DNA of 38,758 nt from Caulobacter sp. D5 (GTDB lineage: Bacteria > Pseudomonadota > Alphaproteobacteria > Caulobacterales > Caulobacteraceae). Under the pieces are notes generated by a model that ran no database searches, had not been told where the DNA came from, and saw only the letters and a list, made by a program, of their open reading frames with translations. Both the position numbers and the translations under genes were made by a program. This document shows positions 3,449-30,450 of the stretch, one piece after another (positions within the stretch are counted from its first letter, which is position 1; each line of letters starts with the position of its first letter). The stretch lies in contig NZ_QHJY01000070.1 in assembly GCF_003185805.1 (NCBI RefSeq), positions 1 through 38,758 on the forward strand, read 5' to 3'.

Positions 3449-3473
3449 GGAACCGGCGGGCTCGCCCGTGGTT
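3449..3473 (+). promoter_or_regulatory. SigT/EcfG-type general stress promoter for the DUF883 gene
   Basis: GGAAC at 3449-3453, 16 bases, then GGTT at 3470-3473. The consensus in alphaproteobacteria is GGAAC-N16/17-CGTT. The -10 box lies 36 bases before ATG 3510, which leaves room for a short leader holding AAGGAGA. Confidence 0.65.
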
Positions 3474-3509
3474 GTGGCAGGCGAACCCAACATCCTGCAA
3501 GGAGACATC

Positions 3510-3809
3510 ATGACCGACACCGGTATTTCCCAGGCCAATGTACGCCATCGCGATAAGGCCAGGGATCAGCTTGGCGCGGCCGGCGCGTCGGCCAAGGACG
3601 CCTATGGCAGCCTCCGGACCGGCGCCGAAGAGCTCTATGCCGGCGGGCGCGAACATTTTCAGGACGGCCGCCAGGTCATCGAGGAAAAGGTTCGCGAAAG
3701 GCCGATCCTGGCGTTGACCGCCGCGATCGGCGTCGGCGTCCTGCTGGGCCTCCTGCTGCGCGGCCCGCGCACCGTCTATGTCCGCGTGCCTGCCACCACC
3801 CGGCCCTAG
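3510..3809 (+). CDS. DUF883 (ElaB/YqjD-like) membrane-anchored protein
   Basis: A 99-residue protein: a soluble amphipathic, Ala/Glu/Arg-rich helical part (residues 1-70), the tail motif ERPILALTAAIGVGVLLGLL as a single C-terminal membrane segment, and a short basic/polar end. This is the layout of the ElaB/YqjD/YgaM family, which in E. coli are stationary-phase, inner-membrane, ribosome-associated proteins. The start at ATG 3510 is fixed by AAGGAGA at 3499-3505. A longer frame extends upstream, but that part lies over the promoter. A paralogue with an added CsbD-like part sits at 35742-36086. The gene is single, with a stress-type promoter directly in front. Confidence 0.85.
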   Translation: MTDTGISQANVRHRDKARDQLGAAGASAKDAYGSLRTGAEELYAGGREHFQDGRQVIEEKVRERPILALTAAIGVGVLLGLLLRGPRTVYVRVPATTRP

Positions 3810-4139
3810 TCCTGGAGAGAAGCCCCGCGCCTTGATGGCCGGGGCGGGCCGCCCTGGATGAGACACCCAGAGCGGCTGGGCCAAACGGATCTGATAAGCG
3901 GCCTGCTCCTACAAGGCCGCATTGGCGCGACCAGTCCGCTGTCCTGGCTAAGCTCAGCCTCGGTGTGAAGGCCTAGCGCCGCCGGGTGGTCCGAAGTGTC
4001 CAGCCGTCCCGCGGGCCGAGGCGCTCCGCTGGCAGGATCGGCGCTCCCAAGGCGTGGAATGTTCGGCTCGCAGCGGCTCGACCACCTCGCCGTCGGCGAC
4101 GAGCCGCGCCTGGCGACCGTGCGCACGAACCTCGGATCT
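3810..4139. other. Intergenic stretch with a GC-rich hairpin
   Basis: No gene recognised on either strand. Just after the DUF883 stop, GCCCCGCGCC and GGCCGGGGC (3822-3845) form an imperfect stem-loop that may end transcription, though no T tract follows. Long frames here are antisense shadows or lack start signals. Confidence 0.4.
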
Positions 4140-4484
4140 TTAAGTCTCGGCGGCGTCGAGAGCGACCTTGAGAAGGTCCCGGCTCGCGCCTGCGCGGATG
4201 ATCGGAACGTCGATCAGCACATCGGCGGCAAAAACGCCGTCGTGCTCGATGGTTTCGGCCACCGCGACCAGCGGCAAATCAGGAGACAGGGCCTTGAGGA
4301 CGGCGAGCCGGCGCAGGTCATCCTCGTAATGGTCGGGCCGCAGACCGGCGATGACGAAATCCACCTGCGACAACGTTCCGAGACGATCCAGATCGGCCTG
4401 CTCGGCGTCGACGACCTCCCAGCCGCGCGCCTCCAAAGCCGCGCGGGTCTCGCCACCGCAATGGTCGGTCAATACCCGGACCAT
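4140..4484 (-). CDS. Receiver-like protein lacking the phospho-acceptor aspartate
   Basis: A 114-residue single-domain protein with alternating strands and helices like a response-regulator receiver: MVRVLTDHCGGETRAALEAR at the start, VDFVIAGLRPDHYEDDL at the third strand, LPLVAVAETIEHDG at the fourth. Where a receiver has an aspartate after the third strand, this has IAG, and the lysine expected near the end is missing, so classical phosphorylation is unlikely. The start ATG at 4482-4484 has a strong GGGAGG 5 bases upstream; the frame extends 20 residues further without one. A stress-type promoter match lies at 4552-4577. The family is not named with certainty; it could act as a protein-protein adaptor. 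Confidence 0.62.
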   Translation of the reverse strand: MVRVLTDHCGGETRAALEARGWEVVDAEQADLDRLGTLSQVDFVIAGLRPDHYEDDLRRLAVLKALSPDLPLVAVAETIEHDGVFAADVLIDVPIIRAGASRDLLKVALDAAET

Positions 4485-4551
4485 GAAACCTCCCAACCGC
4501 GCCTTCAGTCTGGACGCGCCAAAAGGTTTGGCCGTCCCGTTCATCAGGCCA

Positions 4552-4577
4552 AACCACAGTGCTCGCCAGACGGTTCC
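4552..4577 (-). promoter_or_regulatory. SigT/EcfG-type promoter for the receiver-like gene
   Basis: Read on the - strand: GGAAC (4577-4573), 17 bases, GGTT (4555-4552). The predicted transcript would start near 4545, about 60 bases before the start codon at 4484. Confidence 0.55.
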
Positions 4578-7462: not shown

Positions 7463-7522
7463 GCCCCCGGCAGCTCGACGACCTTGCAGCGCGGGTATCA
7501 GGGTTCGGCCAGCGACAGCTCT

Positions 7523-8108: not shown

Positions 8109-8134
8109 GGAACCGACGGCCAAGCCTGACCGTT
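8109..8134 (+). promoter_or_regulatory. SigT/EcfG-type promoter for the TIGR02587-TIGR02588 pair
   Basis: GGAAC at 8109-8113, 17 bases, CGTT at 8131-8134: a full match to the general stress consensus. Because the -10 box ends at 8134, translation must begin downstream, which selects the TTG at 8163 preceded by GGAGGA (8150-8155). Confidence 0.72.
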
Positions 8135-8162: not shown

Positions 8163-8978
8163 TTGGATGCGAACGCGGGTTATGCTCGGGCCTTGAGCCG
8201 GGCCTTCGGCGGGGCCTTGCTGTTTTCATTCCCGCTGCTGATGACCATGGAAATGTGGTCGCTGGGCATGGCGGTGGAGCGCTGGCGCCTGCTGGTCTTT
8301 CTGCTGCTGACGCTGCCGATGCTGATCGGTCTTTCCTACTACGCCGGCTTCGAGCCGACCTTCCGGCTGAAGGACGAGGTGCTGGACGCCTTGGCCGCCT
8401 TCGGCGTCGGCTTCCTGCTGGCGGCGGTCCTGCTGAGCGTCTTCGGCGTGCTGGGGCGCGACGACATCCTCACCCAGGCTGGCCTTGGCAAGATCGCGCT
8501 GTGCGCAGCGCCTGCGGCCGTAGGCGCGCTTCTGGCCGGCAAGCAGTTGGGCGAGCGAGGGCCGGGTGCGCGAGAGAAGGAGCGAGCCGGTCCGCTGAGT
8601 GAACTCTTCCTGATGGCGGTGGGGGCGGCCTTTCTGGCCTTCAACGTCGCCCCGACCGAGGAGATGGTCCTGATCGCCTACCAGATGGGGCCTTGGGCCA
8701 CACTGGCCCTGGTGGCGATCTCCATCCTGCTGCTGCACGTCTTCGTCTATCAGCTCGGCTTTCCGGGCGAGACGCGACGCCGGCAGGCCGGCGACTTTCG
8801 CCGAACCTTCGTGGCCTTCACCTGTCCCGGCTACGGGGTCGCCCTGGTGATGAGCCTCTATCTCCTCTGGACCTTCGGGCGCACCGATGGAGTCGCCGCC
8901 CACGAGATCGCCACCATGACCGTCGTCCTTGGCTTTCCTGCCGCAATCGGCGCGGCCACCGCGCGCCTGGTGGTCTGA
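8163..8978 (+). CDS. TIGR02587 family integral membrane protein
   Basis: A 271-residue membrane protein with about seven helices. Conserved pieces: SRAFGGALLFSFPLLMTMEM near the N-terminus, and FNVAPTEEMVLIAYQM in the middle, whose P-T-E-E in a membrane context is striking. The function is unknown; in other genomes the family is found next to TIGR02588, as here. The start chosen is TTG 8163 with GGAGGA 7 bases upstream. The TTG at 8133 lies inside the -10 box, and the ATG at 8098 is out of frame and upstream of the promoter. The stop overlaps the next start by one base (TGATG). Confidence 0.85.
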   Translation: MDANAGYARALSRAFGGALLFSFPLLMTMEMWSLGMAVERWRLLVFLLLTLPMLIGLSYYAGFEPTFRLKDEVLDALAAFGVGFLLAAVLLSVFGVLGRDDILTQAGLGKIALCAAPAAVGALLAGKQLGERGPGAREKERAGPLSELFLMAVGAAFLAFNVAPTEEMVLIAYQMGPWATLALVAISILLLHVFVYQLGFPGETRRRQAGDFRRTFVAFTCPGYGVALVMSLYLLWTFGRTDGVAAHEIATMTVVLGFPAAIGAATARLVV

Positions 8979-9427
8979 TGGCCCAGAAGCCCAAGGCCGC
9001 AAGTCGATCGCCGGCCTCCAGGCCGAAGGCCTCGCCCAAGCCGGCGCCGGCGCAGGAAACGCCGGCCCTGGAATGGGCCTCGGCTGCGGTGGGGCTGGTG
9101 CTGGCCGCCACGGCCATCAGCCTCACGGCCTGGGACGCCCTCTTCGGCGCCAAGGGACCGCCGGCCATCGCGGTGACGCTGGTCGAGGTCACGCCGACCG
9201 CTCACGGCTATGTCGCGCAGGTGGAGGCGTTCAATCACGGCGGCGAGCCGGCCGCCCAGGTCCAGATCGAAGGCGTGCTGTCGAGCGAGGGCGGGCAGCA
9301 GACCTCGGGCTTCACGATCGACTATGTCGCCGAGGGCTCCAAGGCGTCGGGCGGTCTGGTCTTCGAGAAGGATCCGAGGGCTGGCGACCTGAAACTGCGG
9401 GCGACGGGCTTCGCAGACGCGTCTTGA
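8978..9427 (+). CDS. TIGR02588 family single-pass membrane protein
   Basis: A 149-residue protein: a basic, Pro/Ala/Lys-rich cytoplasmic N-terminus (1-28), one membrane helix (about 31-50, WASAAVGLVLAATAISLTAW), and an outer beta-rich domain with alternating strands (AIAVTLVEVTPTAHGYVAQV, QVQIEGVLSS). It matches the TIGR02588 family, which pairs with TIGR02587. The ATG overlaps the preceding stop by one base, so translation is coupled and the products probably form a complex in the inner membrane. The role is not known; the stress-type promoter upstream implies expression in the general stress response. It converges with the oxidase operon 5 bases downstream. Confidence 0.82.
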   Translation: MAQKPKAASRSPASRPKASPKPAPAQETPALEWASAAVGLVLAATAISLTAWDALFGAKGPPAIAVTLVEVTPTAHGYVAQVEAFNHGGEPAAQVQIEGVLSSEGGQQTSGFTIDYVAEGSKASGGLVFEKDPRAGDLKLRATGFADAS

Positions 9428-9432: not shown

Positions 9433-9738
9433 CTAGTAGCGCCAGAGGAACGGCGCCGATTGCCACAGGATGGCGATGGCCGAGAGCAACGAGGCCAGGG
9501 CTGAAAGGCGCTGGACGAAAGCCCCGCCGAGGCCCGGGCGGCCGGTGGCGCGCCAAGCCCGAACCCCCAAGGCGACTGCGGCCAGGACGCAGGCCAGTGT
9601 CAGGCCCGCGAGAAGCCAGGTCAGCGGCGCCTGGTGTTCGTATGGGGAGATGTCGGCCAGACTGGCGAGCGCATAGGAGGCCAGGAAATGCGCCGCCCAG
9701 AGCGCAAGACCGCCGAGTAGGGAAAGCCAGGTGTTCAC
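9433..9738 (-). CDS. Small membrane protein at the end of the caa3 oxidase operon
   Basis: A 101-residue protein with three predicted membrane helices (about 5-27, 38-60, 80-97). The start GTG overlaps the stop of the fused oxidase subunit (GTGA), so it is translationally coupled to it. No family is certain. Small hydrophobic proteins at this place in caa3 operons are usually subunit IV-like or of unknown function. The residues near the end, ILWQSAPFLWRY, are aromatic-rich. The assignment to the oxidase rests on the overlap only. Confidence 0.7.
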   Translation of the reverse strand: MNTWLSLLGGLALWAAHFLASYALASLADISPYEHQAPLTWLLAGLTLACVLAAVALGVRAWRATGRPGLGGAFVQRLSALASLLSAIAILWQSAPFLWRY

Positions 9739-12278
9739 GCCAGACCCGCGGGGAAGAGACGGGTGACGCCGAGCCCGACGAGACCCTGGCCGGCGGTGTA
9801 GGCCAGGAACAGGCCGACCAGCTCGAGGGTCGCCGGCCGGTCCGGGCCCACATAGCCGCAGAGGCGTCGCATCAGCACATAGAGCGCCATGATCGCCGCG
9901 ACGGCGACGAAGAAGCCTTGCCAGGCCAGGATGGCGTGGACGATCGCGCCCTGGGCGCTGGCCTGCGGCTCAAGGCCGGTCGTACGCCACGACGACAGAT
10001 CGACGCCGAAGGCGAGGGTCAGTAGAGCGGCCGCGGACAGGACCATGGCTGTGGCCAGCCAAGGGCGCGCGAGATGGCGCTTGGCCAGCAAGGCCAGGGC
10101 GCCGCCGGCTGCGGCCGACACGGTAGCGACGGCCAGTGAGGCCATATCCGGCGGCGGACGCCAGGCGTCGGGATTGCGGCTCCACAGGAAGACGTAGGAG
10201 AACACCGACATGGCCAGCACCATGCCGCCGACGACCAGGGTCACGACCATGGCCCACCAGCCGGTGCTCGACGGTCCGCTGGCGTAGGTCGGCAGCGTGA
10301 TCCCGGCGCCCACATCCACCGTCCGCTGGGGCAAGGGATGGTCGAGGAACCAGCACCAGCGCAGCACGCAGAGGATCGCCAGCACGCCGCTGAGCACCGA
10401 AGCGCCATAGGCCTGCACCGTCAGCAGCAGGAAGAAGCCGGCCGTGAACACCGCCGCCCAGACGTGCCAACCGGACGGAACCGGCATGTGCAGCAGATAC
10501 TGGGGCTCGGCGTTGATAGGGCTGGTGACCAGGGTCTCGCGGCCGCCGGTGGGCGCGCCGGGCAGGAAGTAGCGGCCGGCGGCGACGTCGCGGGCGAGGG
10601 TCTTCTGGTCCCACAGCGGATAGAGCGAGGTCACCACCGGGATGCTGCGGGTGGAGTAGAGGCCAGCCGGCAGCCACTCCAGTCCGCCGCCCTCATAGAC
10701 GTTGCCGGCCTCGCTTGCGCCGAAGGGGCGAAAGTTGCGGATCATGTCGATCAGCCAGATCAGCACGCCGGCGGCGAAGACGAAGGCGCCGATGCTGGAG
10801 ATGAGGTTCGGCCACTCCCAGTCACGGCCGGCGGCATAGGTGTAGACGCGCCTGGGCATGCCCATCAGTCCGGTCAGGTGCATGGGCAGGAAGGCCAGGT
10901 GCATGCCCACGAACATCAGCCCGAAGGTCCAGCGCCCTAGGCGCTCGCTCAAGGGCCGGGCCGAGACCATCGGCGTCCAGTAGTAGATCGCCGCGAACAG
11001 CGGAAAGACCATGCCGCCGATCAGCACGTAGTGCAGGTGGGCGACGATGAAATAGGTGTCGTGGGCCTGCCAGTCGAAGGGGACCATGGCGGCCATCACG
11101 CCGGTCAGCCCGCCCATCACGAAGATCAGCAGCGAGCCGAGCACGAAAAGGCCCGGGGCGTTGAACGTCATCCGACCCGAGGCGACCGTGGCGATCCAGG
11201 AAAAGACCTGCACGCCGGCCGGCAGGCTGACGGCCATCGAGGCGGCCGAGAACATCCCGACCGACACGCCGGGCAGGCCGGTCGTGAACATGTGGTGGGC
11301 CCAGACCCCGAAGCTGATGAAGCCGGTGGCCAGGAAGGCCAGCACCACCAGCCAGTGACCGACCAGCGGCGTGCGGGCCACCGCGGGCACGATGGTCGAC
11401 ATCGCGCCCGCCGCCGGCAGGAAGATGATGTAGACCTCGGGGTGGCCGAAGAACCAGAAGAGGTGCTGCCACAACATCGGATCGCCGCCGCGCGCGGCGT
11501 CGAAGAACGGCCAGCCCAGGGCGCGCTCAAGCTCCAGCAGCGTCGTGGCCAGGATCACCGACGGGAAGGCGATGATGATCATGCCGGCGAACACCAGCAT
11601 GGCCCAGGCGAAGACCGGCAGCTTGTCCAGGCTCATGCCCGGCGCGCGGGTCTTGAGCACGCCGACGATGATCTCGATGGCCCCGGCGATGGCCGAGATC
11701 TCGATGAAGCCGATGCCCAGCAGCCAGAAGTCGGCGTTGATCCCCGGCGAGTAGGTGGTCGAGGTGAGGGGCGGATACATGAACCAGCCGCCGTTCGGCG
11801 CCAGGCCGAAGAACAGCGAGCAGAAGAAGGCCAGGCCTCCGATCAGATAAGCCCAGAAGGCGTAGGCCGACAGGCGCGGGAAGGGCAGGTCGCGCGCCCC
11901 CAGCATCTGCGGCAGCAGCAGCACGCCCAGCGCCTCGACCGCCGGCACCGCGAACAGGAACATCATCACCGTGCCGTGCATGGTGAAGATCTGATTGTAG
12001 GTCTCCTGGGCCAGCACGCCCTGCATCGGCAGGGCCAGCTGCGTGCGCATCAGGAGCGCCAGCACCCCGGCCAGCACGAAGAACAGCATGGCCGCGCCGA
12101 CGTAGTAGACGCCGACATAGTTATTGTTGATGACGGTGATCCACTGCCAGCCCTTGGGCGCGCACCAGATCGCCTCCAGCTGCTCCAGCTCGCCCTTCGG
12201 CCGTCGCCCCTTGGTCGGGAAGCGTTCATAGAGGCTGGTGTCGAAGCCGGTCTCCGACGGCGGGGGAGGGCCGCTCAC
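9735..12278 (-). CDS. ctaD: caa3-type cytochrome c oxidase, fused subunits I and III
   Basis: An 847-residue protein. Subunit I occupies residues about 40-555 with all metal ligands: H101 (haem a, MHGTVMMFLF), H279 and Y283 of HPEVY (CuB and cross-linked tyrosine), H328-H329 (VWAHHMFTTG, CuB), H414 (haem a3) and H416 (haem a) in VAHLHYVL. The remaining 290 residues hold about six to seven helices of subunit III type, so the gene encodes a I+III fusion as known in Thermus caa3. It reduces O2 to water in the inner membrane and pumps protons. The GTG start overlaps the stop of subunit II (GTGA). A frame extends further upstream but is antiphase to subunit II and not real. Confidence 0.93.
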   Translation of the reverse strand: MSGPPPPSETGFDTSLYERFPTKGRRPKGELEQLEAIWCAPKGWQWITVINNNYVGVYYVGAAMLFFVLAGVLALLMRTQLALPMQGVLAQETYNQIFTMHGTVMMFLFAVPAVEALGVLLLPQMLGARDLPFPRLSAYAFWAYLIGGLAFFCSLFFGLAPNGGWFMYPPLTSTTYSPGINADFWLLGIGFIEISAIAGAIEIIVGVLKTRAPGMSLDKLPVFAWAMLVFAGMIIIAFPSVILATTLLELERALGWPFFDAARGGDPMLWQHLFWFFGHPEVYIIFLPAAGAMSTIVPAVARTPLVGHWLVVLAFLATGFISFGVWAHHMFTTGLPGVSVGMFSAASMAVSLPAGVQVFSWIATVASGRMTFNAPGLFVLGSLLIFVMGGLTGVMAAMVPFDWQAHDTYFIVAHLHYVLIGGMVFPLFAAIYYWTPMVSARPLSERLGRWTFGLMFVGMHLAFLPMHLTGLMGMPRRVYTYAAGRDWEWPNLISSIGAFVFAAGVLIWLIDMIRNFRPFGASEAGNVYEGGGLEWLPAGLYSTRSIPVVTSLYPLWDQKTLARDVAAGRYFLPGAPTGGRETLVTSPINAEPQYLLHMPVPSGWHVWAAVFTAGFFLLLTVQAYGASVLSGVLAILCVLRWCWFLDHPLPQRTVDVGAGITLPTYASGPSSTGWWAMVVTLVVGGMVLAMSVFSYVFLWSRNPDAWRPPPDMASLAVATVSAAAGGALALLAKRHLARPWLATAMVLSAAALLTLAFGVDLSSWRTTGLEPQASAQGAIVHAILAWQGFFVAVAAIMALYVLMRRLCGYVGPDRPATLELVGLFLAYTAGQGLVGLGVTRLFPAGLA

Positions 12279-13249
12279 TTCAGGCTCTCCAGATAGGCCG
12301 AGACGTCGCGCAGTTCCTTCCCCGTCAGCACCGGATAGGCGGGCATGCGGTTGCCCGGCTTGATCGCCTGGCTGTCGCCGATCCAGCCGGCCAGGGTTCC
12401 CTGGTTGTTGGGCAGGACGCCCGCGCCCAGGATGCGTCGGGCGCCGACATGGGTCAGGTCCGGACCCGCCAGGCCGTTGGCGTTGGTTCCTCGAATGGCG
12501 TGGCAGGCCCCGCAGCCGGCGCGCTCGAACACCGCCTTGCCGGCGGCATGGACCGGCGAAGCGACGGCGGGGGCGGCTTGCCTGGCTTTCCAGGTCTCGA
12601 AGTCGCCTGGCGCGTGGGCGACGACGACCAGGGCCATCAGCGCATGCGGCCCGCCGCAGAACTCGGCGCACTGGGCGCCGTACTCGCCGGGCTGGTCGGC
12701 CTGGATGCGCAGGATGTTGCGGCGGCCGGGGATCATGTCGAGCTTGCCGTTCAGCCGCGGGATCCACAGGCTATGGATGACGTCGGTCGACTCCAGTTCC
12801 AGCGCCACGGGGCGGCCGACGGGAATGTGGATCTCGTTGGCATCCTGGAAGGCCTCGGCGCCGGACGCCTCCAGATAGGCCACGCGCCACCACCACATCT
12901 CGCCGGTGACCCGGATGCGCAGCTCGCCCGGGCGGGGCGGCTCGCTGAGGCGATGGGTCAGGGAAAGGCCCCAAACGAGCAGGGCGCTCAAGACGACGAC
13001 CGGCAAGGCGATCCCGGCGATCCAGACGAGACGCTCGGCGCCCAGACGCCTGCGCCAGGCCCGCGGTGCGAACAGCGCCAGGGCCAGGGCGATGACGACG
13101 ATCGCCAGCACCGCAGCGGACATGGCCAGAAGGCCCCAGGTCAGGCTGTTCAGAGGCGCGGCGAATGGCCCGGCCGGGTCCAGGGCCGGCGGCGGCCAGC
13201 CCTTGAAGCTTTCGGAGGCGGGCGGCGTCTCAGTTGGCATCGGACGCAT
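12275..13249 (-). CDS. coxB: caa3 oxidase subunit II with fused cytochrome c domain
   Basis: A 324-residue protein. Two membrane helices (about 35-60 and 76-98) lead to a periplasmic cupredoxin domain with the CuA ligands H159, C194, E196, C198, H202 and M205 (CAEFCGGPHALM). A class I cytochrome c domain is fused at the C-terminus: C246-x2-C249-H250 and the axial M302 in NRMPAYP. This is the defining architecture of a caa3 oxidase, in which electrons from a cytochrome c pass through the fused haem to CuA. It overlaps the upstream cytochrome c gene by 20 bases and the downstream I+III gene by 4. An alternative ATG lies 3 codons later. No cleaved signal peptide is evident. Confidence 0.94.
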   Translation of the reverse strand: MRPMPTETPPASESFKGWPPPALDPAGPFAAPLNSLTWGLLAMSAAVLAIVVIALALALFAPRAWRRRLGAERLVWIAGIALPVVVLSALLVWGLSLTHRLSEPPRPGELRIRVTGEMWWWRVAYLEASGAEAFQDANEIHIPVGRPVALELESTDVIHSLWIPRLNGKLDMIPGRRNILRIQADQPGEYGAQCAEFCGGPHALMALVVVAHAPGDFETWKARQAAPAVASPVHAAGKAVFERAGCGACHAIRGTNANGLAGPDLTHVGARRILGAGVLPNNQGTLAGWIGDSQAIKPGNRMPAYPVLTGKELRDVSAYLESLK

Positions 13250-13619
13250 AGAGATAGGCCGCGATGTCGCGGGCTTGGGCGTCTGTCAGGCCAGACGCGG
13301 GCATGGCGGTGTCGGGGGCCATGGCCGGCGCATCGCGCAGCCAGGCGATCAGCACGCCTGGACGGTTGGGAAAGCGGCCGGCGATCAGCGCTTGACGCGG
13401 GAGATCGTCCAGCGCGCCGCCCACCGCGCCCTTGGGCCATGTCACGCCCGGGATGCGATGGCAGGCGCCGCAGCCCTCGGCCTTGATCAGGGCCAGGCCC
13501 CGGGCGGGGTCCGCGCCGGTCACCTGCCGTTGCGCAGCGGGTTTTTCGGCGCAGGCCAGCAGGCCCGCCCCGGCCAGGCCGATCATCGCTGCCTGCGCTG
13601 TCTTGGTTCCGCCGCTCAA
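13230..13619 (-). CDS. Small lipoprotein cytochrome c at the head of the oxidase operon
   Basis: A 129-residue protein with a lipobox (LLAC, cysteine 23) and one haem c site C50-GA-C53-H54, with M106 (TAMPAS) as probable axial ligand. It would be anchored by lipid on the periplasmic side of the inner membrane and could feed electrons to the caa3 oxidase or link it to other donors. The start is TTG at 13619 with AAGGGG upstream; the ATG at codon 12 would shorten the signal peptide to almost nothing before the lipobox. Its end overlaps the subunit II gene by 20 bases. A stress-type promoter faces it at 13664-13688. Confidence 0.88.
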   Translation of the reverse strand: MSGGTKTAQAAMIGLAGAGLLACAEKPAAQRQVTGADPARGLALIKAEGCGACHRIPGVTWPKGAVGGALDDLPRQALIAGRFPNRPGVLIAWLRDAPAMAPDTAMPASGLTDAQARDIAAYLYASDAN

Positions 13620-13663: not shown

Positions 13664-13688
13664 AACCCGCCGGAACAGTCGCGGTTCC
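13664..13688 (-). promoter_or_regulatory. SigT/EcfG-type promoter for the caa3 operon
   Basis: On the - strand: GGAAC (13688-13684), 16 bases, GGTT (13667-13664). It lies 45 bases before the TTG of the lipoprotein cytochrome c. It overlaps completely with a matching promoter on the + strand inside one dyad. Confidence 0.6.
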
Positions 13689-13696
13689 GCCGGGTT
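13672..13696 (+). promoter_or_regulatory. SigT/EcfG-type promoter for the dihaem cytochrome c
   Basis: GGAAC (13672-13676), 16 bases, GGTT (13693-13696), 8 bases before GTG 13705. The complementary arms 13664-13676 and 13684-13696 each contain a -35 box of one promoter and the -10 box of the other, so the two promoters are mutually exclusive by geometry. Confidence 0.55.
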
Positions 13697-13704: not shown

Positions 13705-14445
13705 GTGGGCCGCCCGACCGTCCTTTTGCTGATCTTCGTCGCCGTCGGGGTTCTGTTGGCCTGCGGTCGCGCGCCCGGCGAGACCGATCGACGCCTGAGC
13801 CTCGATGGCCGAACCATCGCCATGAGCGGCGGCGCGGGCGGAGCGGCCAAGGCCTGCTTTTCCTGCCATGGCCTCGATGGCCTTGGCGACGGCGTCTCGG
13901 TTCCGAGGCTGGCCGGTCTGGACGCCGGCTACCTGCAAAAGCAGATGGAGGACTACGCCTCGGGCATCCGGCCCGACAAGGTGATGGGACCCGTCGCCAA
14001 GCCGCTGGACGATCGGTCCCGGCGCGCCGTGGCGGCCTATTACGCCAGCTTTCCGGTCAGGGCGGCGCCGGCCTCCGGCGCAGCGCCGCCCCGGCTTTGG
14101 ACGCTCGGCGATCCTGCGCGCGGCCTGGCGCCCTGCGCCGACTGTCACGGCGCCCAGGCCCAGGGCGTCGGCGCGGGCCAGCCCGCCCTGGGCGGGCAGC
14201 CGGCCGCCTATACTCTGGATCAGCTACAGCGCTGGAAGCGCGCCACGCGGCGCAACGACCCGCGCGGCGTGATGACGACGGTCGCCGCCAAGCTCACCGA
14301 AAGCGAAGCCGCCGCCTTAGCGGCCTGGTCAGAGACGCAACCTGCTTCTCCAGCGCCCGCCAGCGGCGTTGCCAGCGCGTCCGCCGTCGCGGCCGCCGCG
14401 GCAGGATCGGCAGCATCCCGTGAAGCACGTCGTCGCGATCGATGA
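13705..14445 (+). CDS. Dihaem cytochrome c lipoprotein (c4/c553-like)
   Basis: From GTG 13705 the protein has 246 residues: a signal peptide with lipobox (VGVLLAC, cysteine 20), then two cytochrome c domains with C51-FS-C54-H55 and C144-AD-C147-H148. M94 (DKVMGP) and M190 (RGVMTT) are probable axial ligands. The two-domain layout, with YLQKQMEDYASGIR after the first haem, resembles cytochrome c4, which carries electrons to terminal oxidases. The last 35 residues are low-complexity Ala/Ser/Arg and lie antisense to the end of the cytochrome b561 gene. The transcript would be close to leaderless with the promoter at 13672-13696; a frame continues upstream but lies over that promoter. Confidence 0.82.
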   Translation: MGRPTVLLLIFVAVGVLLACGRAPGETDRRLSLDGRTIAMSGGAGGAAKACFSCHGLDGLGDGVSVPRLAGLDAGYLQKQMEDYASGIRPDKVMGPVAKPLDDRSRRAVAAYYASFPVRAAPASGAAPPRLWTLGDPARGLAPCADCHGAQAQGVGAGQPALGGQPAAYTLDQLQRWKRATRRNDPRGVMTTVAAKLTESEAAALAAWSETQPASPAPASGVASASAVAAAAAGSAASREARRRDR

Positions 14446-15004
14446 GGTGGTGCTTCAGCGCCGCGCCGACATGGATCGGGATCATCGCGACGAGACACAA
14501 CGCCAGGCCCCAGTGCAGCCACTCGGCGAGGGCCTCGATGGCCCACAGCGTCGCGTGGGGAAGCTCGCCGAACGGCAGCAGGGGCCAGGGCGCGAGGTTG
14601 AGCAGGGTCAGTTCCGTCTCGCGGCTAGTGGCCGACACCATCGCCCAGCCGGTCAGAGGCAGGCCGAACAGGCAGGTGTAGAAGACGTAGTGGGTGGTAT
14701 GGGCCGCCGTGCTCTCCCAGCCCGGTTTGTCGGCGTCATTGATGACGGCTGGGGCGAACAGCCGCCCGCCCACACGGCCCAGCACCAGGACCAGCATCAA
14801 CACGCCGATCAGGTAGTGCAGTGCGTAGGCCGCCTGCATCTGGGCGCCGGGCGCGGCGCGGCCCATCCACCAACCCCAGCCGAGCTGGAAGGCGACGAGC
14901 CCGGCCATTGTCCAGTGGAAGACGATGGCGACCGGCGAATAGCGTCCCTCGTCGGCATGGCCGGCGGCCCATTCGAAGAGGTTCTCGATCAGCCGGTCGA
15001 TCAT
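14294..15004 (-). CDS. Cytochrome b561 family membrane protein
   Basis: A 236-residue protein with four to five membrane helices and the histidines expected for two haem b groups: IVFHWTMAGLV (H30), AYALHYLIGV, TTHYVFY and LHWGLALCLVAMIPIHVGAALKHH. These diheme proteins of the bacterial b561 group pass electrons between quinol and periplasmic acceptors. The C-terminal 40 residues are very basic (GMLPILPRRPRRRTRWQRR). The ATG overlaps the stop of the CtaG gene (ATGA), so it is the third gene of the gcd-ctaG operon. Its 3' end overlaps that of the convergent dihaem cytochrome c by 152 bases. Confidence 0.88.
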   Translation of the reverse strand: MIDRLIENLFEWAAGHADEGRYSPVAIVFHWTMAGLVAFQLGWGWWMGRAAPGAQMQAAYALHYLIGVLMLVLVLGRVGGRLFAPAVINDADKPGWESTAAHTTHYVFYTCLFGLPLTGWAMVSATSRETELTLLNLAPWPLLPFGELPHATLWAIEALAEWLHWGLALCLVAMIPIHVGAALKHHLIDRDDVLHGMLPILPRRPRRRTRWQRRWRALEKQVASLTRPLRRRLRFR

Positions 15005-15714
15005 CGGGCGGCGACCGCCGCGCCGCGTAGCTGGCGCCCGAGCAGGGCCAGAGCCGCGGCTAGATAGACTCCGGCGGCCGGGATCCACATGACGAGACCC
15101 GCCAACTGCTGGTCGTCCAGCGGCGAGAGGCCCCAGGACGTGGTCGTCAGGGCGTGCGGCGCATACAGGGCGCGGGGCATGAAGGTCAGCAGGGCGCCCA
15201 GCAGGCCCATCTGCACGGTGGTCGCCAGCAGAGCGGCGACGGCGGCCGGCGCGGGGGCGGCTCGCACCGCGCGCCACAGCAGCGTCGCGCTCAGCAGAAG
15301 GCTCGCCTGCATCAGCCAGTAGACGCCGTCGCTCGCCAGCGCAGCGCCATAGAGCGCCGGGACGTGCCAGGCCCAGAACGCCGCCGCGAAGGCCAGGGTC
15401 GTCGCGGCCAGGCCTCCGGTCCGTGCGCGTGGAAGAGACCTGGCCAACAGCGGCGCGGCAAGACTGGTCAGCAGCACGTGATGCAGCGTCCGGGCCGAGA
15501 ATAGCGCCGAGCTCAGCGCGCACAGCGGCGAGACGAAGCTCAGCGCCAGCACCGCCATCGCCGCCACGGAGAGGCCGCGCCTTTTGGGCGCTGCAATCCA
15601 CAGCGCGCAAGCCGCCATCGCCAATGCGCCCATCAGCCACGGATCCAAGTTCCACCGGCTCCAGATCTCGGCCGGCGAGGGGCCGGCGCCGCAGTAGGGC
15701 GTCCAGGTCTCCAT
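15001..15714 (-). CDS. ctaG: Cytochrome c oxidase assembly factor, caa3 CtaG family
   Basis: A 237-residue protein with about seven membrane helices. Recognisable family pieces: SPLCALSSALFSARTLHHVLL (residues about 62-82), FWAWHVPALYGAAL, and LLTFMPRALYAPHA, with a DDQQLAGLVMWIPA segment near the end. In Bacillus this family is needed for caa3 oxidase activity; it is unrelated in sequence to the Cox11-type protein that is also called CtaG. It lies 3 bases after the glucose dehydrogenase gene and overlaps the b561 gene. Its presence beside, though not inside, the caa3 operon supports a joint role in building this oxidase. Confidence 0.87.
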   Translation of the reverse strand: METWTPYCGAGPSPAEIWSRWNLDPWLMGALAMAACALWIAAPKRRGLSVAAMAVLALSFVSPLCALSSALFSARTLHHVLLTSLAAPLLARSLPRARTGGLAATTLAFAAAFWAWHVPALYGAALASDGVYWLMQASLLLSATLLWRAVRAAPAPAAVAALLATTVQMGLLGALLTFMPRALYAPHALTTTSWGLSPLDDQQLAGLVMWIPAAGVYLAAALALLGRQLRGAAVAAR

Positions 15715-18094: not shown

Positions 18095-18120
18095 AACACC
18101 GGCGGAGGAGGGGACGTTCC
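18095..18120 (-). promoter_or_regulatory. SigT/EcfG-type promoter for gcd
   Basis: On the - strand: GGAAC (18120-18116), 17 bases, TGTT (18098-18095), about 29 bases before the gcd ATG. The base before GTT is T instead of C. Confidence 0.5.
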
Positions 18121-18173: not shown

Positions 18174-19073
18174 TCAGGCGATGCCGGCGCCGCCGGTCAC
18201 GCCATAGACCTCACCGGTCGTGAAGCTGGCCTCCTGCGAAGCGAGAAGCACATAGACCGGCGCGATCTCCACCGGCTGGCCGGGGCGGCCGAACTGGCTG
18301 TGTTCGCCAAAGTGCTGGACCTTCTCCTGGGTCTGGCCGCCGCTGGGCTGCAGCACCGTCCAGAACGGGCCGGGCGCGACGGCGTTTGCCCGCACGCCGT
18401 CCTTGATCAGCTGCTTGGCCAACGCCTTGGTGAAGGCGACGATGCCGGCCTTGGTGGTGGCGTAGTCCAAGAGGTTCTCGGACGGCTCGTAGGCCTGGAC
18501 TGAAGCGGTGTTGATCACCGCCGCCCCCGGCCTCAGGTGAGGCCGCGCTGCCTGGGTGATCCAGAACATGGCGTAGAGATTGGTCTTCAGCGTGTGGTCG
18601 AACTGCTCGCTGTCGATGGCGGCGATGTCGGGACGGCTGACCTGCTTGCCGGCGTTGTTGACCAGAATGTCGAGCCCGCCCAGACCCTCGACCGCCTTGG
18701 CCACGAGCTCACGGCAGAAGGCCTCGCCCTTGATGTCGCCGGGAAGGGCGATGGCCTTGCGACCCTCGGCCTCGATCAGGGCGATGACCTCGCGCGCGTC
18801 GCTCTCCTCGCTCGGCAGATAGCCGATGGCCACGTCGGCCCCTTCGCGGGCAAAGGCGATGGCGGCGGCGCGGCCGATGCCGGAGTCCGCGCCGGTGATC
18901 AGCGCCTTGCGGCCCACCAGCTTGCCCGCGCCGCGATAGCTTTCCTCGCCGTGGTCCGGCTTGGGATGCATCTTGGCGGCGAGGCCCGGCGCCGGCTGCG
19001 GCTGGGCCGGGAAGGGCGGCTTGGGGTACTGCTCGCGCGGATCCTGCATGCGCAGGCGATCGTCCTTGGTCAT
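18174..19073 (-). CDS. SDR family oxidoreductase with N-terminal extension
   Basis: A 299-residue short-chain dehydrogenase. The Rossmann motif TGADSGIG is at residues 60-67, the NNAG motif and the catalytic S-Y-K set (NTASVQAY, YATTK) follow in order. The first 50 residues are a proline-rich extension (PKPPFPAQPQPAPG) found in the YghA/YhdF-type group of SDRs, which often appear among general stress genes. Substrate unknown; the nucleotide preference is probably NADP. It is a single gene, with a consensus stress promoter 25 bases upstream (19098-19123) and gcd following in the same direction after 108 bases. Confidence 0.9.
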   Translation of the reverse strand: MTKDDRLRMQDPREQYPKPPFPAQPQPAPGLAAKMHPKPDHGEESYRGAGKLVGRKALITGADSGIGRAAAIAFAREGADVAIGYLPSEESDAREVIALIEAEGRKAIALPGDIKGEAFCRELVAKAVEGLGGLDILVNNAGKQVSRPDIAAIDSEQFDHTLKTNLYAMFWITQAARPHLRPGAAVINTASVQAYEPSENLLDYATTKAGIVAFTKALAKQLIKDGVRANAVAPGPFWTVLQPSGGQTQEKVQHFGEHSQFGRPGQPVEIAPVYVLLASQEASFTTGEVYGVTGGAGIA

Positions 19074-19097: not shown

Positions 19098-19123
19098 AAC
19101 GGGAGCGCCGGCGACGGTGTTCC
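19098..19123 (-). promoter_or_regulatory. SigT/EcfG-type promoter for the SDR gene
   Basis: On the - strand: GGAAC (19123-19119), 17 bases, CGTT (19101-19098). This is a full match to the general stress consensus and leaves a leader of about 18-20 bases. Confidence 0.7.
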
Positions 19124-20851: not shown

Positions 20852-20876
20852 TTGAAAGTATCTTCGAGGCTTTCAA
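20852..20876. promoter_or_regulatory. Inverted repeat in the A/T-rich island
   Basis: TTGAAAG (20852-20858) and CTTTCAA (20870-20876) are perfect complements around 11 bases. It may be a protein-binding dyad or the stem of an RNA hairpin. Confidence 0.35.
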
Positions 20877-20987
20877 TTATCGTAGGAGTTAACGAAAAAG
20901 ATCCGCCTCGTGATAATGCTAGCGTATGTTAGAGTGAAATAGAGAATACGTAGTGCTCGTTATTGTGCATTGCGGCGCGCCAAGCCT

Positions 20988-21017
20988 ACGCCGCACTGCG
21001 CCGCACTGCGCCGCACT
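20988..21017 (+). repeat. 10-base tandem repeat, three copies
   Basis: CGCCGCACTG is present twice in perfect tandem and once with a final A instead of G (20988-20997, 20998-21007, 21008-21017). It lies at the edge of the A/T-rich island. Confidence 0.8.
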
Positions 21018-21108
21018 ACGCCAGAGCCGCCTGGGCTAGCAGAAATAGCGGGTCATGGTTGCGTGGCCGTGGCGGGGGCGTTGTGACCACACCAGGACGT
21101 CCGGGCGA

Positions 21109-21234
21109 TCAGGACTTGGTCCCGCGCAGGGCGTCGGGATCGATCGGGCGGGGCCTGGAGTTTTGGCTCGAGGTTGAGCGCGGATCGTTGCAGCCCTTTG
21201 GCGGGGATGAGCGCGTTCCGGGATAGGTTTTCAT
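21109..21234 (-). CDS. Possible 41-residue protein
   Basis: A short frame from ATG 21234 to TGA 21109, beginning MKTYPGTRSSPPKGCNDPRS and ending DPDALRGTKS. It has a weak AAAGGCG 5 bases before the ATG, and lies 40 bases downstream of the small gene at 21275-21382 on the same strand. The sequence is polar and Pro/Ser-rich with one cysteine. No family is recognised. In DNA this rich in G and C such frames arise by chance, so it is only a candidate. Confidence 0.2.
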   Translation of the reverse strand: MKTYPGTRSSPPKGCNDPRSTSSQNSRPRPIDPDALRGTKS

Positions 21235-21274
21235 CTGGTCGCCTTTCTTGGCGCGCCGCCATCGCGGCGGAGGA

Positions 21275-21382
21275 TCATTTTTTTCGCGATGCGGCCGTCG
21301 CCAAAGAGGCCGACGGCGTAGCGGTGATCACCTTGGGCTTGATTGCCTTGGGTTTGCGGACTTCTCGGTTGCCTTTGGACAA
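21275..21382 (-). CDS. Tiny lysine-rich protein of the MSKGNRE type (35 residues)
   Basis: From TTG 21382 the frame reads SKGNREVRKPKAIKPKVI and ends SLATAASRKK. Small proteins starting M-S/A-K/R-G-N-R-E-x-R-K-P-K are recurrent, uncharacterised products in alphaproteobacteria, which supports this as a real gene. AAAGGA lies 7 bases before the TTG. The product is strongly basic with no membrane segment, so it could bind nucleic acid or ribosomes, but the role is unknown. It is too short to be found by usual length cut-offs. It may be cotranscribed with the candidate at 21109-21234. Confidence 0.6.
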   Translation of the reverse strand: MSKGNREVRKPKAIKPKVITATPSASLATAASRKK

Positions 21383-21532
21383 GAGGCGTTCCTTTCGATG
21401 GCAATGAGGGCGCGACGAGCCGGCGGAGCAAAAGCTCCGTGGGGACGATAGCGAAGGTGATGGGCGGTCGACGCGTCGGGATCTTGGCGCTTAAGCGTCC
21501 GACGAACCGATCTGATGGCGTGACTGAGCGCC

Positions 21533-21757
21533 TCAAAGCGACATTAGCATGAACGCCCGGTCCTCAGGGAAATGATTGCGGCCTGGCGACGATCCTCCGG
21601 CTCCGAATAAGGGCTCCAGCACGGCTGTTTCGCCCTGCCTTTTGACGAGTCGCATCGGCCGCCGGCTGATCCACAGCAGGTCCATCTCGATGGCGGTCCA
21701 GCCGGCCGGCAACATGATGGTTCGTTCGGCCCAGCCATGCAGCGTTTCGGTTTTCAC
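21533..21757 (-). CDS. Hypothetical protein of 74 residues
   Basis: The frame from GTG 21757 to TGA 21533 gives a protein that begins VKTETLHGWAERTIMLPAGW, contains AIEMDLLWISRRPMRLVKRQ and ends DRAFMLMSL. The residue mix (balanced hydrophobic and charged, regular strands) looks coded, in contrast with the Arg/Ser-rich upstream extension of the same frame, which runs to 21955. No family is recognised. No strong ribosome binding site is seen before GTG 21757, so start and reality are uncertain. Confidence 0.4.
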   Translation of the reverse strand: MKTETLHGWAERTIMLPAGWTAIEMDLLWISRRPMRLVKRQGETAVLEPLFGAGGSSPGRNHFPEDRAFMLMSL

Positions 21758-21939
21758 TCGGTCGTTTGAACGCCGGAGGCGCTCTGTGAGCCCCCTCGTA
21801 TGGTCGGGCTTTGCCGCGAAATGACGATCAGTCTGCGCTGGACCGATTCCATGACTGCGAACCCGCCGTGAGTTTCGCGATGACGCGATAGCGGAACTTC
21901 CGCGAGACCGAGGCCTTTCTCCGTGCGAAGGAGAGCCAC

Positions 21940-22077
21940 ATGGTCGATCAGCCACGTTCGGAGCCCCAAGCTCGCCCCGCTCGCTGCTATTGGAGCCCGC
22001 TCATCGGAGTCGATCGCGCCTGGCTGGCGGCCTGCCTGGCCAGGCTGGACGAGGTTCGCCGGCCGGCCGTGGCCTAA
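21940..22077 (+). CDS. Small protein of 45 residues with a strong ribosome binding site
   Basis: ATG 21940 is preceded at the ideal distance by AAGGAG (21928-21933). The product starts MVDQPRSEPQARPARCYWSP, continues LIGVDRAWLAACLARLDEVR and ends at TAA 22077. The second half would form an amphipathic helix. Two cysteines and two tryptophans are present. No family is recognised. A GGAAC lies 43 bases upstream (21893-21897) with CCTT 16 bases further, one base off the stress consensus. The gene is too short for usual cut-offs, but the ribosome binding site makes it credible. The stress promoter of the next gene starts 21 bases after it. Confidence 0.5.
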   Translation: MVDQPRSEPQARPARCYWSPLIGVDRAWLAACLARLDEVRRPAVA

Positions 22078-22097: not shown

Positions 22098-22122
22098 GGA
22101 ACGCTTGCGGGTCGCCGGGGTT
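22098..22122 (+). promoter_or_regulatory. SigT/EcfG-type promoter for the catalase-fold gene
   Basis: GGAAC (22098-22102), 16 bases, GGTT (22119-22122), about 28 bases before ATG 22151. Confidence 0.6.
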
Positions 22123-22150: not shown

Positions 22151-23266
22151 ATGACCCTTGACCCCGCCATTCGTCCGTTGCCCTACGACCCGTCGATCGA
22201 GACGCCCGAAAAGGGCGAGGCCGAGACGACCCAGGGCCTGATCGACCAGATGCGCAAGATCGCCGAGATCACCTACGAGGACGGCGGTCATGCGATGCGA
22301 GCGGTGCATGCCAAGCCGCACGGTGTCGTGCAGGGCCAGTTGATCGTGCCGCAGGACCTGCCGCAGGACCTGCCGCCGGTGCTAGCCCAAGGTCTCTTCG
22401 CCCAGGCCGGCGCCCACGACGTGGTGATGCGGTTCTCGACCTCGCCGGGCGATATCCTTGACGACAAGGTCTCCACCCCGCGCGGCCTGGCGATCAAGGT
22501 GTTCGACGTCGAAGGCGAGCGCCTGCCGGGGTCCGAGGGCGCGACGACCCAGGACTTCCTGCTGGTCAACGGCAAGGCCTTCGCCACGCCCAACGCCAAG
22601 GCGTTTCTGGCCAACGTCAAGCTGCTGGCGGCCACTACCGACAAGGCCGAGGGCCTCAAGAAGGTGCTGTCGGCGGTGCTGGGCGGCGCCGAGACCCTGG
22701 TCGAGGCGGCGGGCGGGCAGAGCGCGACCCTGAAATCGCTGGGCGGCCATCCCAGGACGCATATCCTGGGCGAAAGCTTCTTCAGCATGGCCCCGATCCG
22801 GTTCGGCGATCATGTCGCCAAGCTCGGCGTGCGGCCGATCGCGCCCGCCCTGACGGCTCTGACCGACAAGCCGGTCGACCTGGACGGCAAGCCGGACGGC
22901 CTGCGCGAGGCGGTCGCCGAGTTCTTCGCTGGCCAGGGCGGGGAGTGGGAGGTCGTGGTCCAGCTGCGCACCAACGCCGACACCATGCCGATCGAGGAGG
23001 CCCACAAGCCGTGGCCGGAAGACGAAAGTCCGTATCTGCCGGTCGCCCGTCTCGTGGCCGGCCCGCAGGCCAGCTGGGACGAGGCCCGCTCGCCTCGGAT
23101 CAACGACGCCTCGGCCTTCAGCCCCTGGCACGGCCTGGCCGCCCACCAGCCGCTCGGTTCGATCATGCGCGTGCGCAAGGCCGTCTATCAGGCCTCGCAG
23201 GAGTTTCGCCTGACGCGGACCGGCTGCCCGCTGCACGAGCCGGCCGCCGTTGCGGATCTCGGCTGA
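22151..23266 (+). CDS. Catalase-fold haem protein (small catalase-like, SrpA-type group)
   Basis: A 371-residue protein. The segment HAKPHGVVQGQLIV places the distal histidine at the catalase position, followed by the RFSTSPGD loop and SPRGLAIKVF-like strand (STPRGLAIKVF), and the central TTQDFLLVNGKAF. It is shorter than clade 1-3 catalases, and the canonical R-x3-Y proximal motif is not obvious, which fits the catalase-related group found in alphaproteobacteria whose members may be peroxidases rather than true catalases. It starts at ATG 22151 (GGAG 7 bases upstream) and ends two bases before the convergent molybdoenzyme gene. The stress-type promoter in front fits an oxidative-stress role. 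Confidence 0.85.
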   Translation: MTLDPAIRPLPYDPSIETPEKGEAETTQGLIDQMRKIAEITYEDGGHAMRAVHAKPHGVVQGQLIVPQDLPQDLPPVLAQGLFAQAGAHDVVMRFSTSPGDILDDKVSTPRGLAIKVFDVEGERLPGSEGATTQDFLLVNGKAFATPNAKAFLANVKLLAATTDKAEGLKKVLSAVLGGAETLVEAAGGQSATLKSLGGHPRTHILGESFFSMAPIRFGDHVAKLGVRPIAPALTALTDKPVDLDGKPDGLREAVAEFFAGQGGEWEVVVQLRTNADTMPIEEAHKPWPEDESPYLPVARLVAGPQASWDEARSPRINDASAFSPWHGLAAHQPLGSIMRVRKAVYQASQEFRLTRTGCPLHEPAAVADLG

Positions 23267-29008: not shown

Positions 29009-29122
29009 CGATACTCCCCCGTGCGGGTCCTTCAGATGGCCGCGTACGGAGCAAACACCGCCCGCTTGCAGGTCGTTGCACCGGCGAGACCGGGGAAACG
29101 GTCCGCGCCGGCGACCGGCGCA

Positions 29123-29147
29123 GGAACGCGACATCCGAACCGCCGTT
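29123..29147 (+). promoter_or_regulatory. SigT/EcfG-type promoter for the DUF2252 gene
   Basis: GGAAC (29123-29127), 16 bases, CGTT (29144-29147): a perfect consensus match 41 bases before ATG 29189. Confidence 0.72.
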
Positions 29148-29188
29148 GTGGTCATCCGCGCCCGACCGGGAGCGTCGAGGGGCAGGGC

Positions 29189-30421
29189 ATGGGCGAAGCG
29201 CGATTGGACAAGAGCCTGGCGGACAAGAGCAGCAGGGCGCCGCGACCCTCCGAACGCGGACCGATCCTGACCCGCACCCGTAACCTGAAGATGGCGCGCT
29301 CGGCCCACGCCTATGTGCGCGGCAGCACCGTCAAGTTCTACGAGTGGCTCGAGGCCAGCGGCGGCAAGCTGCCCAGCGGGCCGCCGGTCTGGATCTGCGG
29401 CGACTGCCATATCGGCAACATGGGGCCGCTGGCCGACGCCAAGGGCCGGGTCGATATCCAGATCCGCGATCTTGACCAGACGGTGATCGGCAATCCGGCC
29501 CACGACCTGATCCGGCTGGGCCTGTCGCTGGCCTCGGCGGCGCGCGGCTCGGACCTGCCGGGCGTGATCACCGCACGGATGATTGAGGGCGTCGTCGAAG
29601 GCTACGAGGCGGCCCTGGCCGAGGACTTCGAGGCCAAGTCGCGCCATCCGCCGATGATCGGCGCCGTGCTGGGCGAGGCCACCAGGCGCACCTGGAAGCA
29701 TCTGGCCGCCGAACGCCTCAACGGCGTCAGGCCCGAAATTCCGATCGGCAAGCGGTTCTGGCCGGTCAGCCGCGCCGAGCGACGCGAGCTCGAAGCGTTG
29801 TGCCTCGGCCAGCCGATCCGCGACCTCGTCACCGGCCTGAAGTCTCGCGACCGCAAAAGCGAAATCCGCATGCTCGACGCGGCCTACTGGATGAAGGGCT
29901 GCAGCTCGCTGGGGCGCCTTCGCTACGCTGTGCTGCTGGAAGTCGATGGTCGCGATGGCGGACCCGAGATCTGCTTCCTGGACCTCAAGGAAGCCGCAAA
30001 GGCCGCTGCGCCGCGCGATCCGGGCGCGGTGATGCCGCGCGACAACGCCGAGCGCATCGTCGCCGGCGCCCTGGCCTTGTCGCCGAACCTGGGCCAGCGC
30101 ATGGCCGCCTGCCGCCTGTTGGGCAAGTCGGTGATCGTGCGCGAACTGATGCCGCAGGACATGAAGATCGAACTGACGGGTCTGACTCCGGACGAGGCCA
30201 TGGCCTCGGCGCGTTCGCTGGCCCGCGTGGTCGGCGACGCCCATGGCCGGCAGATGGAGCCGCAGATGCGACTGGCCTGGCTGACCGAGCTGGCCCGCAA
30301 TCGTTCCGGGCTGCTGGATGCGCCGTCCTGGCTGTGGTCGAGCGTCGTGGAACTGACGGCCGCCCACGAAGGGGCCTATCTCGAACACTGTCGGCGTCAT
30401 GCCCTGGGACTGGACGCCTGA
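29189..30421 (+). CDS. DUF2252 family protein
   Basis: A 410-residue protein with the family segments MARSAHAYVRGSTVKFYEW, WICGDCHIGNMGPLADAKG and FDLNDFDQ-like DIQIRDLDQTVIGNPAHDLIRL. The G-D-C-H-x-G-N and following D-L-D residues recall the catalytic and metal-binding loops of protein-kinase-like folds, and DUF2252 is often grouped with these; no substrate is known. The C-terminal half has conserved VRELMPQDMKIEL and RVVGDAHGRQM segments, the second with a histidine. It starts at ATG 29189 with GAGGGG upstream; a longer frame passes through the promoter and is excluded. Single gene, probably SigT-controlled. Confidence 0.88.
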   Translation: MGEARLDKSLADKSSRAPRPSERGPILTRTRNLKMARSAHAYVRGSTVKFYEWLEASGGKLPSGPPVWICGDCHIGNMGPLADAKGRVDIQIRDLDQTVIGNPAHDLIRLGLSLASAARGSDLPGVITARMIEGVVEGYEAALAEDFEAKSRHPPMIGAVLGEATRRTWKHLAAERLNGVRPEIPIGKRFWPVSRAERRELEALCLGQPIRDLVTGLKSRDRKSEIRMLDAAYWMKGCSSLGRLRYAVLLEVDGRDGGPEICFLDLKEAAKAAAPRDPGAVMPRDNAERIVAGALALSPNLGQRMAACRLLGKSVIVRELMPQDMKIELTGLTPDEAMASARSLARVVGDAHGRQMEPQMRLAWLTELARNRSGLLDAPSWLWSSVVELTAAHEGAYLEHCRRHALGLDA

Positions 30422-30425
30422 CGAC

Positions 30426-30450
30426 GGAACGATCGGACTGAGCGCGGCTT
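30426..30450 (+). promoter_or_regulatory. Partial stress-type promoter match for the GlsB-like gene
   Basis: GGAAC (30426-30430), 16 bases, GCTT (30447-30450). The -10 box deviates from CGTT at two bases. It lies 38 bases before ATG 30489. Confidence 0.35.

Follow-up and report, generated by a model that had tools for sequence, protein, structure and literature searches.

Nine EcfG/SigT-type promoter motifs cluster in a Caulobacter sp. D5 contig, three of them ahead of genes for a putative respiratory branch

A stretch of 38,758 nt from Caulobacter sp. D5 (contig NZ_QHJY01000070.1, positions 1 to 38,758, the whole of which is called the window below) contains, on its two strands, nine exact matches to GGAAC-N16/17-NGTT, a motif of the type used by the sigma factor EcfG/SigT. 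We read the window as a cluster of predicted EcfG/SigT general-stress transcription units with nine promoters, three of which would serve one respiratory branch, and put the probability of this reading at about 0.88. The PhyR–NepR–EcfG switch is the established control of the general stress response (GSR) in Alphaproteobacteria and, judged from its sequence, the window is an ordinary segment of an EcfG regulon with unusual cargo.

All nine sites listed in a preliminary description of this DNA were recovered by the pattern scan at the same coordinates and strands (minus-strand sites being named by their higher coordinate), including the three full matches with CGTT at 8109, 19123 and 29123. The whole genome (5,286,074 bases in 587 contigs) has 154 exact matches, 64 with CGTT and 90 others. 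From this density 1.13 sites are expected in the window and the Poisson probability of nine or more is 3.0e-6, or about 4e-4 once roughly 136 windows of equal size are allowed for; the window is thus about eight times as dense as the genome. Dinucleotide shuffles of the window gave a mean of 0.97 sites (standard deviation 0.94, maximum 4 in 100 shuffles). Equal density in shuffled or unrelated sequence, named in the preliminary description as the result that would tell against it, was therefore not found. When all 154 matches are assigned to contigs, the window contig comes first with nine, followed by contig C414 with six, and every other contig has at most three.

Each of the nine sites lies on the same strand as a gene and 33–93 bp upstream of its start, measured from the -35 box, in line with the earlier statement that the sites are correctly oriented and nearly all precede genes. 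Some of these starts were picked by family match and context, so the range and the figure of 9/9 are slightly favourable; the site at 13672, 33 bp from its chosen start, would allow almost no leader. GC-rich DNA yields GGAAC and GTT pairs, and the cluster could in principle be a random one. Forward and reversed patterns are nearly equal in number, both in this genome (154 against 139) and in ten alphaproteobacterial genomes (2603 against 2654, no genome-wide excess; the ten were picked mostly from those with many sites at the oxidase loci described below), and single exact matches are therefore mostly chance. A crude coding test placed 19 of the 30 first-listed matches of the genome within coding-like frames and, to the detriment of our reading, two of the nine window sites (22098 and 29123) in open frames that continue upstream of the chosen start. 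Against chance stand the density of the window, where the reversed pattern occurs only three times, the promoter position of all nine sites and their recurrence upstream of orthologues, and we regard a random cluster as extremely improbable.

Three weaker sites that had also been proposed found no support, since 13 of the 17 genes scanned, the three included, have a match of this quality (7/9 bases, spacing 15–18) near their start. The sequences at 7522 (TGAAC-N16-TGTT), at 25621 (CGAAC-N17-TGTT) and at 30426, where GGAAC is present with no GTT at the proper spacing, were all rejected as evidence. Near the start of csbD we find GGAAC-N16-GATT; a promoter is still possible there, as the csbD of the relative G110 has a full site.

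The cognate regulators lie on contig C414. A profile search gave a single NepR match in the genome, above the cut-off, and beside it are PhyR, also above its NCBIfam cut-off, and an ECF (extracytoplasmic function) sigma factor, which we name EcfG from its position next to nepR and its sigma-70 domains. A core ecfG locus within the window was considered and rejected, as none was seen among the frames scanned and the only NepR match is that on C414. Among 14 control genomes the NepR model matched one, Caulobacter vibrioides. Within its 6.7 kb, C414 carries six full GGAAC-N16/17-CGTT sites forming three divergent pairs, and the relatives G064 (contig C43) and G081 have six sites each of similar sequence and spacing (sites only, the genes there being unread). 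An alternative is that a different ECF sigma factor, recognising a similar motif, would use the window sites instead. Besides the one EcfG, the genome has seven further sigma-like matches of 24–30% identity, one of which falls on PhyR itself, and in S. meliloti the targets of RpoE6 (ECF26) overlap those of RpoE2 (27/40; PMC6180224; here and below, published work is cited from partial texts). The identical full motif, however, occurs six times on the ecfG-nepR-phyR contig, and GGAAC-N16-CGTT, with a variable -10, is the EcfG motif derived from mutant transcriptomes of other Alphaproteobacteria (PMC7083833, PMC3892343); a different sigma factor seems to us quite unlikely.

Three of the sites appear to control a single respiratory branch that begins with a periplasmic dehydrogenase and ends in a terminal oxidase (Table 1; cargo was assigned by Pfam and NCBIfam, and operons from spacing and strand). 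The first precedes a putative operon for a pyrroloquinoline quinone (PQQ) dehydrogenase, CtaG and cytochrome b561, the second a dihaem cytochrome c, and the third a putative operon that begins with a small cytochrome c and continues with COX2 and COX1. With COX1, COX2 carrying a fused cytochrome c, and CtaG, the genes expected of a caa3-type (A-type) oxidase are present. The long C-terminal extension of COX1, which has no Pfam match, is probably COX3-like. The respiratory genes, we infer, function together as a single branch, and their predicted promoters suggest that the bacteria may switch their mode of respiration under stress or starvation.

We sought the pattern within 250 bp upstream of orthologues, leaving out rows in which the alignment started too deep inside the gene. 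Every one of the nine sites is found again before one orthologue or more, some of them widely and others rarely. It is present in all five orthologues of the dihaem cytochrome c, a second genus included, in three of four of the PQQ dehydrogenase, in both of the catalase-like gene and in four of the nine homologues tested of the small cytochrome c. The sole orthologue read of the DUF2391 gene, in G084, has it with an altered spacer. Among short-chain dehydrogenase (SDR) orthologues of at least 85% identity, eight of nine have the site 49–57 bp upstream with diverged spacers; the DUF883-like gene has it in the same place in 3/3 orthologues of at least 85% identity, and 13 of 15 distant homologues (34–44%) have a site 131–203 bp upstream of the extrapolated start (eight more loci gave no alignment and are not counted). 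For the receiver-like gene it is found in four of seven related loci, two of the four being copies in one genome. Pairwise alignment of 52 orthologue upstream rows, made without use of the motif, gave a footprint: 333 of 401 motif bases (83%) are kept, against 636 of 889 in the spacer (72%) and 2234 of 3390 in the flank (66%), in rows that are related by descent and include five same-genome duplicate loci.

The oxidase loci of other bacteria extend this comparison. From the best 80 of 589 loci with a COX1 relative, 33 are alphaproteobacterial by name and 46 are not. The remaining one (L083), on a contig titled as a Bordetella metagenome-assembled genome, was set aside; it has the gene order of the window and EcfG-type sites, and is possibly mis-named or mis-binned. 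A contig named Brevundimonas is 74% identical to the window oxidase. The alphaproteobacterial loci (651 kb) hold 117 sites against 35 for the reversed pattern and the others (806 kb) 19 against 30, with three or more sites in 17/33 and 0/46, respectively. In a span reaching from 300 bp before the extrapolated start of five cluster genes to 60 bp past it (alphaproteobacterial loci tested: small cytochrome c 15, dihaem cytochrome c 7, ctaG 26, cox2 31, PQQ dehydrogenase 4), a site was found at 12 of the 33 alphaproteobacterial loci and one of the 46 others, compared with one and none for the reversed pattern (Fisher 6e-5). Three sphingomonad loci have a site upstream of the dihaem cytochrome; in the betaproteobacterial Variovorax locus L102, which shares the gene order of the window, the cytochrome c gap is without a site. 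Loci from Stappia (L121), Rhizobiales (L130) and Bosea (L099) have 18, 15 and 10 sites around the oxidase, each within about 22 kb, and are possible large GSR clusters.

With a site directly before a tested gene in only 12 of 33 loci, the data would also fit a different arrangement, in which the stress sites are real and the oxidase module answers mainly to oxygen, copper or redox signals, with EcfG playing a minor part; RoxSR co-controls the caa3 oxidase of P. aeruginosa (PMC5436846). In the window, however, all three respiratory promoters carry sites, and that of the dihaem cytochrome is kept in every orthologue, the second genus among them, and in the sphingomonads. We consider this arrangement rather unlikely, though the most credible of the alternatives.

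The two promoters in the gap between the dihaem cytochrome and the oxidase operon face each other, each with its -35 inside the other's spacer, and therefore probably admit a single polymerase at a time. The offset of the pair is identical in G064, G071 and G084, and the sphingomonad loci L086, L088 and L120 have the pair overlapping in a different register. A class of symmetric bidirectional EcfG promoters was considered and rejected, since the frequency of overlapping opposite pairs per site does not exceed that of the reversed pattern (10 pairs in 117 sites against 6 in 35 for the alphaproteobacterial oxidase loci, 4 in 78 against 4 in 30 for fetched family loci); the palindromic form is accordingly largely built into the motif, and only the conserved position at this gap speaks for a bidirectional promoter. 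Divergent pairs that lie within 120 bp without overlapping occur 6 and 7 times in the two sets, and not at all in either with the reversed pattern. Nothing relevant to bidirectional ECF promoters was among the literature matches listed.

The preliminary description called the window a stress-response island that includes respiratory genes. This stands for a predicted cluster, with three sites before respiratory genes, conserved sites and cognate regulators, and fails for a mobile element. The tRNA scan found no tRNA in the window, no integrase was seen among the window frames scanned, and the GC content is 0.677 against a mean of 0.687 over 30 loci of the same genome; a mobile genomic island was rejected on these grounds, although its junction could be missed because the cluster ends lie past the contig. 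Around shared genes, G084 (9 in 80 kb, P 0.001), G087 (7 in 40 kb, P 0.0002) and G081 (5 in 40 kb, P 0.01) also show a raised density, and G080, G146, G113 and G022, which have no genome-wide reference, show 7, 8, 5 and 3 sites against 1, 2, 4 and 0 reversed. G084 has the same modules in a different order. Of 75 genomes of the genus, 19 have DUF2252 (12 of these 19 with at least 57% identity) and 7 have the receiver-like gene. The window has the look of a reshuffled accessory GSR gene cluster rather than of a mobile element.

A number of observations pull the other way and lower our confidence in the predicted cluster. The neighbourhoods in G064 (P 0.30), G071 (P 0.09) and G103 (P 0.68) are not significantly enriched. 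A directly upstream site is found in just two of eight DUF2252 orthologues and this gene, taken alone, has no footprint (motif 61%, spacer 62%, flank 64%). The same-place site is missing from all 20 SDR homologues below 73% identity, 7 of which have one 158–168 bp upstream, and from all three DUF883-like homologues at 59–64% identity; one close orthologue each of the SDR (97%) and the receiver-like gene (85%) also lacks it. Of the alphaproteobacterial oxidase loci, 21/33 lack a site immediately before any of the tested cluster genes, and L121, L130 and L099 alone give 43 of the 117 sites. Finally, the main texts of EcfG regulon papers, as far as available, either lack the words cytochrome and oxidase or use them for other genes.

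In motif, spacing, cognate ecfG-nepR-phyR locus and typical cargo, the window resembles the known EcfG/SigT (ECF15) regulon. Described cargo includes csbD, catalases and an HWE kinase (PMC7083833), catalases and single-domain response regulators (PMC6599016), the single-domain regulator MrrA (PMC5964349) and, under RpoE2, a short-chain dehydrogenase (PMC6180224). The window differs in packing many units into 27 kb and in its respiratory branch, which is absent from the cargo described in these partial texts. In P. aeruginosa a caa3 oxidase (coxBA-PA0107-coxC) is controlled by RpoS and gives an advantage under carbon starvation (PMC5436846). There, as predicted for the window, a caa3-type oxidase is under a general stress or stationary-phase sigma factor; the sigma factors are unrelated, the available text mentions no PQQ dehydrogenase or cytochrome b561, and the window COX1 differs by its long C-terminal extension. 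Another alternative oxidase, the aa3-type coxPONM of Rhizobium etli, is raised in stationary phase in a (p)ppGpp-dependent manner (PMC3188799); its subunit layout differs from that of the window operon, and control by EcfG is not stated in the part available. Nor is EcfG control of a caa3 branch stated in the available parts of PMC6599016, PMC7083833, PMC3892343, PMC7713065, PMC2912261, PMC5436846, PMC3188799, PMC8092242, PMC6180224, PMC5964349, PMC4551563, PMC3989490, PMC9648850 or PMC8103513. In this mostly open literature we found no report of EcfG control of an oxidase or a PQQ dehydrogenase, and an earlier report is possible.

The features of the window are collected in Table 1. In our alignment the receiver-like protein seems to have no phospho-acceptor Asp where one is usual, at the end of strand 3, and such a GSR-controlled pseudo-receiver might modulate the PhyR relay. 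Several genes fit the theme and have no exact site, namely those for an FdhF/YdeP-family oxidoreductase, DUF3008, Transgly_assoc, CsbD, a HisKA_2/HWE-like kinase and an HPII-like catalase. The last (37069–38758, minus strand) was matched by its model from position 202 on and is about 212 residues longer in G084; its frame is open to the contig end, so its N-terminus and promoter lie past it. Many other window genes have no exact site, including Mfd, KaiC, both hybrid kinases, SemiSWEET and CinA. The region 20700–22000, between the HWE-like kinase and the catalase-like gene, is AT-richer (GC 0.61 over 20001–22000), and no convincing gene was seen in it.

Table 1 Predicted EcfG-type promoters and associated genes in the window (pLDDT, predicted local distance difference test)
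Feature	Position	Strand	Basis
EcfG-type promoter, GGAAC-N16-GGTT	3449..3473	+	exact motif; 61 bp upstream of DUF883-like gene
DUF883/ElaB-like small membrane protein	3510..3809	+	DUF883_C E 0.0019, below cut-off
Single-domain receiver-like protein, 114 residues	4140..4484	-	no Pfam match; model pLDDT 75; PDB receiver folds from E 1e-4
EcfG-type promoter, GGAAC-N17-GGTT	4552..4577	-	exact motif; 93 bp upstream of receiver-like gene
EcfG-type promoter, GGAAC-N17-CGTT	8109..8134	+	exact motif; upstream of DUF2391-TIGR02588 pair
DUF2391/TIGR02587 membrane protein, start uncertain	8163..8978	+	TIGR02587 above cut-off
TIGR02588-like protein, probably same operon as DUF2391	8975..9427	+	82.5 bits, below cut-off 95
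101-residue protein, last in oxidase operon	9433..9738	-	no Pfam match; kept downstream in G064, G071, G084
COX1 subunit, long C-terminal extension	9735..12278	-	COX1 E 1e-140
COX2 with C-terminal cytochrome c, caa3 type	12275..13249	-	COX2 and Cytochrom_C in a single protein
Small cytochrome c, oxidase operon gene 1, start uncertain	13230..13619	-	Cytochrom_C E 2.6e-6
EcfG-type promoter, GGAAC-N16-GGTT, oxidase operon	13664..13688	-	exact motif; interleaved with opposite promoter
EcfG-type promoter, GGAAC-N16-GGTT, dihaem cytochrome c	13672..13696	+	exact motif
Dihaem cytochrome c, probable lipoprotein, start uncertain	13705..14445	+	two Cytochrom_C stretches; NCBIfam matches all below cut-off
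Cytochrome b561	14294..14998	-	PF01292
CtaG caa3 oxidase assembly factor	15001..15714	-	PF09678
Membrane PQQ dehydrogenase, glucose/quinate/shikimate family	15718..18066	-	TIGR03074, 927 bits against cut-off 833
EcfG-type promoter, GGAAC-N17-TGTT, PQQ dehydrogenase operon	18095..18120	-	exact motif
Short-chain dehydrogenase (SDR)	18174..19073	-	family match
EcfG-type promoter, GGAAC-N17-CGTT	19098..19123	-	exact motif; upstream of SDR gene
EcfG-type promoter, GGAAC-N16-GGTT	22098..22122	+	exact motif; upstream of catalase-like gene
Catalase-like protein, presumably SrpA-like	22151..23266	+	Pfam Catalase only E 0.01, below cut-off
EcfG-type promoter, GGAAC-N16-CGTT	29123..29147	+	exact motif; upstream of DUF2252
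DUF2252 protein	29189..30421	+	PF10009 E 2.5e-70

The following picture would account for the cluster. Under stress, phosphorylated PhyR would remove NepR from the single EcfG/SigT, and EcfG-RNA polymerase would initiate at the nine promoters of the window, one of them leading to the PQQ dehydrogenase, CtaG and cytochrome b561, one to the dihaem cytochrome c and one to the small cytochrome c, COX2-cytochrome c and COX1 of the caa3-type oxidase. By analogy with what has been put forward for the RpoS-controlled caa3 oxidase of Pseudomonas, a periplasmic dehydrogenase feeding quinone and a proton-pumping oxidase may uphold membrane energy in starved or stressed cells. We infer from the sites that EcfG would use them under stress and that the interleaved promoters would exclude one another. 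There is, in our estimate, an even chance that across the Alphaproteobacteria EcfG controls a dedicated stress branch of PQQ dehydrogenase, cytochrome b561, dihaem cytochrome c and caa3-type oxidase, convergent with the RpoS-caa3 system of gammaproteobacteria, and that the face-to-face promoters balance its two arms. The general stress response is usually described through protective genes. If one sigma factor also switches a respiratory branch, Alphaproteobacteria of soil and water would survive stress partly by actively changing their energy metabolism, much as with RpoS in Pseudomonas.

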